Below are positions 50,825 to 54,309 of a stretch of 64,000 nucleotides of DNA, piece after piece (within the stretch, counting starts at the first letter, position 1; every line of letters begins with the position of its first letter). Location: contig NZ_CP133594.1 in NCBI RefSeq assembly GCF_031312535.1, positions 620,001 through 684,000 of the forward strand, in the 5' to 3' direction. The translations under genes were made by a program, and so were the position numbers. The stretch is from Methanolobus mangrovi (GTDB lineage Archaea > Halobacteriota > Methanosarcinia > Methanosarcinales > Methanosarcinaceae). The notes beneath the pieces are model-generated. The model was not told the DNA's origin, ran no database searches, and worked only from the letters and a program-made list of their open reading frames with translations.

Positions 50825-52177
50825 TTATCGATCCGGTTTCACCAGCCAGCAGTGGCAGTTTGACTGGAAGATATCCCCGTGGGCAAAATTAGCTGCAAGG
50901 CAGCTTCCCCTGCAAACAGGAAGCCAGTCGCATTGCTGACAGCTACCGTTAACATCCGAGGTTTTCAGGCTCCTGAAATAATTGAGGAAACGGGAATTGT
51001 TCCATATCCACTGGAAATCTTTTTCTTTCACATTCTCTGCTTCTGCTCCCGAAAAATAATTACATGGGAGTACCTCTCCGCTGGATGTGACGGTACAGTA
51101 GGAAATTGCACCATCGCAGCCTATTCTCGTATCAGCATCAATCTCCTGTTCAGGAGGCAGGCTGAAAGTGCATTCGAATTCCATTGGAGCTATATTGACA
51201 CCATCCTCCTCTTTCTTAGCATGCAGGAATTCTGTCAGCTCTCTCATTCTGGCAGGAGCCACTTCCAGTTCATCCGCATACTTCCCGCGTCCGAACGGGA
51301 CAAAAGGGAGGATACGGAATGTCTGCACTCCCATCTCATTCGCAAGCTCGTAAAGGCGGTGGATATCATCAATATTCATTGTAGTAACTGTGGCTGCAAG
51401 GGTAACAGGAACACCTGCACGTATCAGAAGCTCTATTCCATCCTTCGTTCTCTGCCACGACCCGGGATGCTGGCGGAATTCATCATGCACAGCAGGTTCC
51501 GGTGAATCAAAACTTACCTGTACACAGGCACCTATACTGGCAAGTCTTTGTGCAGCATTCTCGTCTATCAATGTCCCGTTGGTGGCTACCTGTATCGAGA
51601 TACCTTTTCCTGCTGCATATTCAGCAATGTCGAAAAAGTCCTTTCTTACCATAGGTTCCCCGCCACTCAGTATGAATTGACTGATGCCGAAGCCCGCACA
51701 CTGATCTATAAACTTGCAACACTCGGCAAAGTCCAGCTCCTCTCTGCCCTCCTCTCCTGCGCTTACAACACAGTGCTTACACCTGAGATTACATCTTGAT
51801 GTCAGGTCCCACAGAACAGCTAAAGGCGGTGGCAGTTTCCAGTAATTGAGTCTTCCTCTTCGCCACCATAGCATCCCGTCCCCTGTGAGCTTTTCAAGCA
51901 GACTAGAACTCATATCAACAACAGTATTCCTGTCAGTTCTATAAGCTCCTGAGATTTCCGTGATTATTTCATCAAGGGTCCTGTATCCGTCACAGAGCTT
52001 CAACAGCCAGAAAGCAGGCTCATTCAGCTCATTTTCTACTCCTGTGATGGGGTTTTCTATGACCCATACCTCATCTTCATGTTTTATCCTGAAAGGAAAA
52101 TATGGCACAAGCTCATTTCTATCCAAAATAGAAAAAGGTCCGGGAACAGTTCCCGGTTCGTTTTTCGGCAATATCAC
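50825..52177 (-). CDS. PqqD-radical SAM-SPASM peptide maturase-like protein
   Basis: A 450-residue radical SAM enzyme. Residues about 25-105 resemble PqqD (the RRE that binds precursor peptides), with ENPITGVENELNEPAFWLLK. The radical SAM core begins at SRCNLRCKHC, with Cys129, Cys133 and Cys136 binding the 4Fe-4S cluster, followed by FILSGGEPMVRKD for SAM. The C-terminus (about 330-450) holds a SPASM domain with more than ten cysteines, including SCQQCDWLPVCRGSC. Such enzymes make thioether or C-C crosslinks in peptides. The GTG start shares four bases with the stop of the upstream thermolysin-type gene, which carries eight CPP(A/S)P repeats; these are the obvious substrate (inference). Related enzymes of tetrapyrrole pathways cannot be wholly excluded. 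Confidence 0.88.
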   Translation of the reverse strand: MILPKNEPGTVPGPFSILDRNELVPYFPFRIKHEDEVWVIENPITGVENELNEPAFWLLKLCDGYRTLDEIITEISGAYRTDRNTVVDMSSSLLEKLTGDGMLWWRRGRLNYWKLPPPLAVLWDLTSRCNLRCKHCVVSAGEEGREELDFAECCKFIDQCAGFGISQFILSGGEPMVRKDFFDIAEYAAGKGISIQVATNGTLIDENAAQRLASIGACVQVSFDSPEPAVHDEFRQHPGSWQRTKDGIELLIRAGVPVTLAATVTTMNIDDIHRLYELANEMGVQTFRILPFVPFGRGKYADELEVAPARMRELTEFLHAKKEEDGVNIAPMEFECTFSLPPEQEIDADTRIGCDGAISYCTVTSSGEVLPCNYFSGAEAENVKEKDFQWIWNNSRFLNYFRSLKTSDVNGSCQQCDWLPVCRGSCLAANFAHGDIFQSNCHCWLVKPDR

Positions 52178-54309
52178 TTTAGTTCCCCAAGCATCACAAG
52201 GGTCTTCTTTCTCCAGTCATGCATCTTAGCTTCCGATATTCCAAGAGCCTTCGAAAGTTCAGTGATTTTCTTTTCATTCTCTGTAGCCTTCATGAAATCT
52301 CCCAGTGTCAGGATAGATCTTCCCTTGAAAAGATTTGCAGTTTCAGGACCGATTCCTACAATTTCAATTATATCCGTTTTCAGTGTTATTTCAGGTCTTC
52401 TTACACGGATGTCCGGGATATATGGTGGCAATGGATCAGGTCCAGGCAGACATGAAAGTCCCGGAGACGGTGGGCATGCAATATGCGGTGAAGGAGGACA
52501 CACTACTATTGGAGATGGCGGACATACAATATCCGGTGCAGGTGGGCAGATATATGGTGACGGAGGGCATGCGAAATGCGGTGATGGCGGGCAGATATAT
52601 GGTGACGGTGGACACAGGATGTGTGGTGCAGGTGGACAGATGAACGGAGCTATCCAGCATATCATCGGACATGTGACCGCAGTACCTATGCCAACAGCAG
52701 CGAAAGCGTTTATAATGCTTGCTCTCCAGCGTGAATAATGCGGGTTGGTTGCATAGAGATCGTCAAGCGAATCCAGCACAGCATCCCTCATATCACTGAA
52801 ATCAGAACTTGATACCAGATGGGTTGTAAGCGCCTGATAGTAAATAATACCAAGAACATCACGTCCAAGTCCTTCACATATCCTTATACCACGATGTGTC
52901 CCACCGGTTGCTATCAGGTAAGCTGCTTTGTTCATGATACCGCTGTTTATGTGTACTCCGCCGTAATCCTGGGCTCCGGTGTATTTATCGGTCATATGAT
53001 CTGGCTGATGGCCTGCAAGAACACTGTCTATCGGATTTGCCGGATCATACAGGCCGCCATTGGTAGGGTCTTCCATATTACGTGACCCTGGTGCAGAAGC
53101 CAGCAGCCATGCATCTTCCCCGAAGATCCAGTTACCGGCTATAAGGGCGGCGAAAACATCCGACATGGACTCGTTCAGGGCACCTGATTCCCCGCTGTAA
53201 ACAAGATTTGCAGTGTATTCAGTGACAGCATGTGTCCACTCGTGTGCTATTATGTCCAGTGCGCAAAGAGGATCATATTTTATCCCATCACCGTTACCTA
53301 TCTTGACATAACTTCCATTCCATGATGCATTGTTCCAGTTTGCTCCGCAATTTGCATAAATATGCATGTCAGCGCCGGCATCATCGTAGCTGTCACGTCC
53401 GTGAACGGTAAAGAAGTAGTCATACACCATTCTTGTATAGAGATGACAATCAACGTCAGGTCCCTGAGATGCTGCAGACCAGTTGTTATTATTATCTTCA
53501 GATACAGGAGCAGGAGGATAGCCTCCGTTAGCATCGTGGGTTGTTACCCTTGCAGAACTTGGTAACCACTGGTCGTCAAGCTGATATTGGGCAGAACCGT
53601 GGTCGTGTACAGTATTAATAGTTACAGCACCGGAATATCTTCCGATTCCTGAACCGGTGGTCCGGGTATGCGTCTGTTCATTATTGTATTTCCAGACAAT
53701 TTCTCCGCTTAGTGCATCAACAAAATATTCCCATTTTGCAGGCGTATCGTCCCCTTTAAGGTCCCTGTCCATACCATTGACAGTCACGTGCCACACAAGA
53801 TGGGGTTGTTCCACAAATTGTGTAAGTATCATAAGAGCAGGCTCTGCATGCAGGCGACCCAGGGAATTGTTCCTGTCATCACCAAGTGCTACTTTTAAAG
53901 CCTGTTCATCAGTGATCTTTGGTTTTTCAGGCAGGTCTATTCCGGGTGTAAGTTTCCCAGTTGTTCCTTTTATTTTATTATTTGCGTCAATATGGACTAT
54001 AATTTCACTGCCAAACACGGGCAGTTCTTTGTAAACCTGCTGCATGCGTACATGTCTGGCTCCAAGCCTGTCAGTATCTATTCTTTTTAGCAGCATTTCC
54101 TTTTGTACAGAATCCAGTAAAAAAAGTCCTTTGTTCTGATCAAGGAATTCAATGGCAGCAATACCCGGATCTAAATGCTCTGCCTGTGCAAGTACTCCTT
54201 TTACTCGCAATGGGCTGCCGGTTTGTTCGTCCCACTTTATCTCAATATTTGCATCTATCTTTTTTAGATTCTCTAATACGTCTGTTTGTTTCTTACTCGG
54301 ATTATACAT
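52174..54309 (-). CDS. Thermolysin-type (M4) metallopeptidase with CPP(A/S)P repeat tail
   Basis: A 711-residue protein. Residues about 10-210 are an FTP/PepSY-type propeptide. The M4 catalytic domain (about 215-546) has the zinc site HEWTH at 356-360 with Glu380 in NESMSDVFA, and His453 in GGVHINSG, so it is probably active. Residues 547-624 form a Cys-Pro repeat (see separate entry), and 645-711 a helix-hairpin-helix-like domain with IVGIGPETANLFKG. No signal peptide is visible at the N-terminus (MYNPSKKQTD), unusual for M4 enzymes, so export, if any, is non-classical. It is translationally coupled to the radical SAM gene. ATG 54309 follows GGGGAGACAGGT. Confidence 0.9.
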   Translation of the reverse strand: MYNPSKKQTDVLENLKKIDANIEIKWDEQTGSPLRVKGVLAQAEHLDPGIAAIEFLDQNKGLFLLDSVQKEMLLKRIDTDRLGARHVRMQQVYKELPVFGSEIIVHIDANNKIKGTTGKLTPGIDLPEKPKITDEQALKVALGDDRNNSLGRLHAEPALMILTQFVEQPHLVWHVTVNGMDRDLKGDDTPAKWEYFVDALSGEIVWKYNNEQTHTRTTGSGIGRYSGAVTINTVHDHGSAQYQLDDQWLPSSARVTTHDANGGYPPAPVSEDNNNNWSAASQGPDVDCHLYTRMVYDYFFTVHGRDSYDDAGADMHIYANCGANWNNASWNGSYVKIGNGDGIKYDPLCALDIIAHEWTHAVTEYTANLVYSGESGALNESMSDVFAALIAGNWIFGEDAWLLASAPGSRNMEDPTNGGLYDPANPIDSVLAGHQPDHMTDKYTGAQDYGGVHINSGIMNKAAYLIATGGTHRGIRICEGLGRDVLGIIYYQALTTHLVSSSDFSDMRDAVLDSLDDLYATNPHYSRWRASIINAFAAVGIGTAVTCPMICWIAPFICPPAPHILCPPSPYICPPSPHFACPPSPYICPPAPDIVCPPSPIVVCPPSPHIACPPSPGLSCLPGPDPLPPYIPDIRVRRPEITLKTDIIEIVGIGPETANLFKGRSILTLGDFMKATENEKKITELSKALGISEAKMHDWRKKTLVMLGELK
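52438..52638 (-). repeat. CPP(A/S)P codon repeat within M4 peptidase
   Basis: Eight units of 7 or 8 residues, each beginning CPPSP or CPPAP (residues 558-619), are flanked by degenerate units CWIAP before and CLPGP after; one more Cys occurs at 547. Unit lengths run 8, 7, 8, 7, 8, 8, 8, 8. Each unit ends in two or three mostly hydrophobic residues such as HIL, YI, HFA or IVV. At DNA level the units are similar but not identical, so the array is selected rather than freshly expanded. The Cys spacing matches substrates of radical SAM thioether enzymes in being regular. Confidence 0.92.

Follow-up and report, generated by a model that had tools for sequence, protein, structure and literature searches.

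Which substrate does a radical S-adenosylmethionine (SAM) enzyme serve when its gene is coupled to that of a full-size peptidase? The question is raised by a small two-gene operon on the minus strand of the archaeon Methanolobus mangrovi, within a window of 64,000 nucleotides (contig NZ_CP133594.1, positions 620,001 to 684,000) of a complete genome of 2.62 Mb; all coordinates below are those of the window unless a locus is named. The first gene encodes a thermolysin-like (M4) peptidase zymogen of 711 amino acids that has no signal peptide and ends in a cysteine-repeat tail and a small helical domain (52174..54309). The second encodes a protein of 450 amino acids with a GTG start, composed of PqqD, radical SAM and SPASM domains and predicted to modify that tail (50825..52177). 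The two genes share a GTGA stop/start overlap of four bases (52174..52177), as had been read from the sequence alone. The pair is probably an enzyme/substrate operon, in which the enzyme modifies the cysteines of its partner's tail. The conserved partner of the enzyme is the tail of C-x-x-[G/A/S]-(x)-P units and not the peptidase.

The evidence for this partner comes from the homologues of the enzyme, which were collected by an order-wide search for the PqqD domain and then by screening 186 genomes from the order with an enzyme profile. The final profile was applied to this archaeal order, with bacterial genomes hardly covered. It returned 23 full-length homologues at E<=1e-153; the next matches appear only from 1e-89 and are AhbD-like. 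Sequence upstream is available for 22 of the 23, the last one (G436) beginning at a contig end, and each of the 22 comes directly after a protein that ends in Cys-x-x-[Gly/Ala/Ser]-(x)-Pro repeats. The sequence-only reading had held that homologues generally found without the repeat protein would speak against it, and the order shows the reverse. It had also tied the enzyme to the repeat of a peptidase; the repeat has proved to be the constant element, whereas the peptidase is one carrier among others. The tail is carried by an M4 peptidase in 14 cases, an S8 subtilase in two, a protein of about 320 amino acids in three and a protein resembling a contractile-injection-system fibre in three.

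The tails differ in sequence from carrier to carrier. In the S8 group, which consists of two near-identical enzymes (G397 and G500), the carrier is a leaderless subtilase with a tail of the form CLRAPQII-CLRAPQII-...-CLRGPIQ-CLRGPIQ or (CPPAPKI-CPPGPIR)n; because the sequence of G397 ends within the tail, its S8 carrier is assigned from that of G500. The carriers of about 320 amino acids (G037, G047, G473) have tails of CRTGLPDMTLH-CRTGLPDMTLH... and CAAGP units, and searches of Pfam, NCBIfam and the PDB gave no family for them. The fibre carriers (G439, G459, G461) are proteins of 1176-1398 amino acids with a CIS13-type N-terminus (2.3e-25), followed by carboxypeptidase-regulatory and immunoglobulin-like repeats. 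In two of the three the tail is long and built of CLAGKPDNTIT or CPAGQPNTP units, and that of G459 is short and irregular. In G439, a sheath gene is present on the contig that encodes the fibre carrier.

A uniform scan was applied to the 4,289 open reading frames (ORFs) in the whole set of fetched loci, a set with overlaps and repetition. Its criterion of four or more C-x-x-[GAS]-x(0,1)-P motifs within 100 amino acids was picked after the tails had been seen, and its result is a description with negative controls and no blind test: one ORF matched per locus in which the enzyme is present together with the gene upstream of it; the loci of AhbD, of an archaeal radical SAM family of 470-500 amino acids, of distant bacterial hits and of other controls gave no match. 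Viral contigs scanned with the enzyme yielded no relative. A tblastn search of plasmids returned generic SPASM enzymes only (mycofactocin, NirJ), and the same uniform scan found no cysteine-tail neighbour around two full-coverage plasmid matches.

Maximum-likelihood analysis places the tail-associated enzymes, together with one further sequence, L150, in a clade (100/99) apart from AhbD and the 470-500-amino-acid family. There is one sub-clade per carrier type, with the M4, S8 and 320-amino-acid groups each supported at 100/99 or better and the fibre-type enzymes grouping with the contig-end sequence. The carriers were switched at deep branches while the tail was kept. Some deep joins are meeting points of long branches, which makes the branching order of the sub-clades less certain.

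Within the genus, the two genes occur strictly together. Both are present in the same 14 of 27 members and both are absent from the same 13, which is the co-occurrence that the sequence-only reading had proposed to look for. The 4-bp GTGA overlap is kept in all 14 species. The pair stays adjacent while the genes on either side differ between species, which makes the two genes together the unit. The named relatives that carry the enzyme are Methanolobus species and metagenome-assembled genomes of Methanosarcinaceae. In 34 genomes of other genera the enzyme was not found at the threshold used, and three weak M4 matches in these genomes have no tail.

The tail of the M. mangrovi protein (residues 547-626; 52432..52671) contains 11 cysteines and is the predicted substrate region. 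It reads TCPMICWIAPFI-CPPAPHIL-CPPSPYI-CPPSPHFA-CPPSPYI-CPPAPDIV-CPPSPIVV-CPPSPHIA-CPPSPGLS-CLPGPDP. The eight CPP[AS]P units proper (52462..52638), spaced by 7 or 8 residues as had been claimed for them, are flanked by the degenerate units CWIAP and CLPGP. Further multi-copy matches to the CPP[AS]P motif are absent from the rest of the genome. The Methanolobus orthologues have 7-9 units, and all ten of the cysteines that can be aligned are invariant over the 14 species, with both cysteine codons used in every such column. Divergence of the tail over these species is high at synonymous sites (mean pS 0.54, the proportion of synonymous differences) and low at nonsynonymous sites (pN 0.07). Invariant cysteines amid such synonymous divergence indicate residues under selection, and neither a recent DNA repeat nor chance low complexity.

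The position three residues after each cysteine is also constrained. In the M4 protein it is Ala, Ser or Gly for 10 of the 11 tail cysteines. Pooling one M4 tail with all tails of the other carriers gives Gly 60, Ala 16 and Ser 6 of 93 cysteines (88%), that is 82 of 93 as against 24 of 63 for the cysteines elsewhere in the same proteins. Most units have a proline at +4 or +5, and unit spacing over the carriers is mostly 7-13 residues. Copy number and spacing vary, but the cysteine and the small residue at +3 do not, a pattern that suits a substrate better than a mere docking handle. A docking handle would leave the enzyme to modify a site elsewhere in the carrier, or some other substrate; the binding of peptide segments by PqqD domains is compatible with this, as the tail could be the segment bound. 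Nothing else was found in common between the carriers, and this explanation is regarded as highly improbable. The tail cysteines are likely to be the substrate of the enzyme.

The enzyme itself has the parts expected of a peptide maturase. The PqqD domain (residues 50-103; 51869..52030), of the RiPP (ribosomally synthesised and post-translationally modified peptide) recognition element type, matches at 26.2 bits against a cut-off of 23.4, the radical SAM domain at 7.3e-26 and the SPASM domain (50849..51118) at 1.2e-8; the PqqD-like region, CxxxCxxC core and cysteine-rich SPASM domain noticed in the bare sequence are all confirmed by these matches. The CxxxCxxC motif (C129/C133/C136; residues 129-136; 51770..51793) is invariant in 14 orthologues, and the seven SPASM cysteines are invariant in nine aligned representatives covering the four carrier types. 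PqqD-type domains bind the substrate in RiPP maturase systems. The region is modelled by AlphaFold with the order of a beta-hairpin plus winged helix; Pfam did not detect the domain in one homologue (L149). The nearest solved structures by sequence are RiPP maturases, namely SkfB (4.9e-24), PqqE and CteB, and those nearest by fold, in a search with a low-confidence radical SAM model, are SkfB, SuiB and CteB. SkfB, CteB and PqqE, which have SPASM or twitch domains, differ in that their substrates are short precursor peptides, and their overall identity to the enzyme is low.

The best-scoring named models are those of the heme synthases AhbD and NirJ2, which cover the core and SPASM domain and leave out the PqqD part. 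This raises a further explanation, whereby the tail is an array of unmodified thiolates, of heme- or metal-binding sites or of disulphides, and the product of the enzyme is a cofactor such as a tetrapyrrole. The dipeptide CP is also a heme-regulatory motif. However, the tail enzymes fall in a clade separate from AhbD, and the genome has an AhbD-like gene of its own, the second-best paralogue. On these two grounds a heme role was rejected. The PqqD domain, the tracking of enzyme by tail over the carriers and the want of a conserved metal-ligand pattern such as CxxC also tell against the cofactor explanation as a whole, which is considered very unlikely. In the four lineages examined, the enzyme brings no NCBIfam model up to its cut-off, the named radical SAM equivalogs (AhbD, NirJ2, MftC, StsB, PqqE) included.

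If the tail cysteines are the substrate, the product would reasonably be expected to be a thioether, and the closest precedent for its geometry is streptosactin. In that peptide, unnested alpha-thioethers join Cys25 to Ser28 and Cys31 to Gly34 (PMC8172795, PMC13361665). The system, a type II unnested sactipeptide made by GggB, shares with the tails a SPASM radical SAM enzyme and a Cys-x-x-Ser/Gly ring geometry equal to the Cys-to-+3 linkage predicted for the tail units. It differs in scale, as streptosactin has 14 residues and two rings, whereas the tails have 7-9 or more units on full-size archaeal proteins. Glycine is the commonest +3 residue and has no beta-carbon, so a glycine acceptor can offer its alpha-carbon only; together with streptosactin, this leads to the prediction of tandem four-residue alpha-thioether rings. 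The alpha-carbon at +3 as acceptor is given slightly less than an even chance.

Other chemistry on the same cysteines, such as a beta- or gamma-thioether, cysteine oxidation or decarboxylation, or epimerisation, is somewhat unlikely. SPASM enzymes are chemically diverse, the models of PapB and the SCIFF (ranthipeptide) maturase also match the enzyme, and CteB is among the nearest structures. The glycine found at +3 in 60 of 93 units excludes a beta-carbon acceptor at that position in those units, while leaving acceptors elsewhere open to the enzyme.

A mechanism for the preferred reading, modification of the tail by its partner enzyme, can be outlined. The PqqD domain would dock on the co-translated partner, and the enzyme would then work along the C-terminal tail, modifying each cysteine. 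The product would be a row of short, unnested four-residue rings, each linking the cysteine sulphur to the alpha-carbon of residue +3, with Ala or Ser as the acceptor in the M4 tail and Gly in most relatives, and with 2 Da lost per ring. The prolines that come next in the sequence would stiffen the tail into a stalk that resists proteases and separates the peptidase from the terminal helical domain. What the tail does is the least certain part of the argument: a stalk of this kind would suit a segment that lies between a protease and its conserved terminal domain and that is also found on a fibre. That the tail serves as a rigid or proteolysis-proof appendage and not as a released peptide is a tentative proposal, falling a little below an even chance.

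The main rival treats the tail as a RiPP core with its own protease: the enzyme would crosslink the tail and the peptidase would free it as a bioactive peptide or signal. No small precursor ORF was found in the operon, and the partner, at 711 amino acids, is not the short precursor with leader and core that defines a RiPP. A radical SAM enzyme, a PqqD domain and a protease make up the classical RiPP gene set, and the carrier is a protease in two of the four carrier types and possibly in a third. The protease QhpE, which cuts QhpC after crosslinking, is of the subtilisin type (PMC7876137), and a weak QhpE match was obtained for the S8 carrier. Against release stand the roughly 70 residues C-terminal of the tail, which are conserved in Methanolobus as a whole helical domain, and the fibre carrier, which is no protease. 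No exporter or immunity gene travelling with the pair was found around the loci. A released peptide is accordingly judged quite unlikely.

Several points weigh against a tail-modifying enzyme of the kind proposed. The AlphaFold models, built with 14 close sequences, are of low confidence (mean pLDDT, the predicted local distance difference test, of 39 and 56). The top full-length named families are heme enzymes, AhbD reaching 220 bits against a cut-off of 500. The +3 rule leans in part on repeats within the same protein, which are not independent. Lastly, no tail protein is encoded near L150, a distant, long-branched member of the clade.

The predicted chemistry belongs to a known type. QhpD is a radical SAM enzyme that forms several cysteine thioethers in the protein subunit QhpC, the substrate being encoded in the same operon (PMC7876137). 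This system of the quinohemoprotein amine dehydrogenase is alike in placing a thioether enzyme beside a protein subunit of its own operon; it differs in its Cys-to-Asp/Glu crosslinks and its small leader-bearing gamma-subunit, with neither a repeat tail nor a catalytic carrier. What could not be found described is the substrate layout, a repeat tail on full-size archaeal proteins that is portable between carriers; the literature search, which left most subscription papers and all preprints outside, returned no published account of the enzyme-tail system, in keeping with the earlier impression of novelty. Crosslinking by radical SAM enzymes has been described chiefly on small peptides. It is suggested, with some reserve, that one archaeal PqqD-radical SAM-SPASM clade strings Cys-to-+3 thioether rings on the tails of unrelated full-size proteins, giving rigid, protease-proof stalks. 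The pairing predicts the substrate, its cysteines and the acceptor position. If true, archaea would possess a portable tail-stapling modification for whole enzymes and injection-system proteins, which would raise the new question of why peptidases carry a stapled tail.

The remaining features of the M4 protein are those of a complete zymogen. An FTP propeptide motif (residues 75-119; 53953..54087; 1.2e-13) is followed by a sub-threshold PepSY match (residues 131-204) and the Peptidase_M4 and Peptidase_M4_C catalytic domains (residues 218-541; 52687..53658; 4.2e-30 and 2.6e-37). The catalytic site is intact, with the HExxH motif and downstream Glu of family M4 present as HEWTH (356-360) and NESMSD (E380). 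The N-terminus is MYNPSKKQTDVLENL, and the start position is identical in 14 of 14 orthologues. As first noticed in this one gene, a signal peptide or hydrophobic leader is absent, here and in the orthologues (14 species). The protein thus shares complete catalytic domains and an FTP propeptide with the thermolysin family and differs from it in the missing signal peptide, the cysteine-repeat tail and the helical domain. The C-terminal domain (residues 640-711; 52177..52392) is modelled as five helices with a local pLDDT of about 80; a domain after the repeat is therefore upheld, but its helix-hairpin-helix label is weak, the HHH_5 score being 20.4 bits against a cut-off of 27, and it is best called HHH_5- or helix-turn-helix-like, below Pfam cut-offs. 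The genes flanking the pair, oppositely oriented, are presumably sfsA-like and amino acid symporter-like.

Further observations concern the carriers. A leaderless M4 peptidase in G036 (L023) has two C-terminal P-domain-like repeats, recognised by eye, and no cysteine tail, so M4 zymogens without a leader also occur outside the pair. An ORF of about 108 amino acids directly follows the S8-linked radical SAM gene (L119:3509-3832, minus strand; L093:1852-2178, plus strand). By eye it resembles the N-terminal part of the S8 carrier, and it may be a free propeptide-like inhibitor. The YDHG and TVSCxSA motifs of the 320-amino-acid carrier resemble, by eye, a clan CD cysteine peptidase; no search confirms this.

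The idea that the M4 peptidase is cargo of a contractile injection system, prompted by the presence of such a system in related genomes, was set aside as not required, with the sheath gene absent from the genome of the window. The sheath gene is likewise absent in 13 of the 14 genus members having the pair. In three loci of family f5 (L094, L096, L098), the cysteine-tailed fibre and the radical SAM gene lie within contractile-injection-system loci, with several 'LQRTIGNQAV' proteins nearby, one of them with DUF6861. In L096 and L098 there is also a leaderless FTP/M36 (fungalysin-type) peptidase near the fibre and the radical SAM gene.

Among the relatives of the enzyme, L150 (6890-8311 of its locus, plus strand) belongs to a different family of the same phylum. 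No gene for a tail protein lies within some 6 kb of it, and it is possibly a stand-alone or trans-acting member. The family of 470-500 amino acids (L151-L159) is widespread in archaea and conserved, with a different N-terminal region and no cysteine-tail neighbours. PqqD domains were also seen inside proteins of 719-748 amino acids (L080, L086, L087, L100, L101), which are common in family f5, occur in G365 as well and, by eye, begin like cobalamin-binding radical SAM enzymes.

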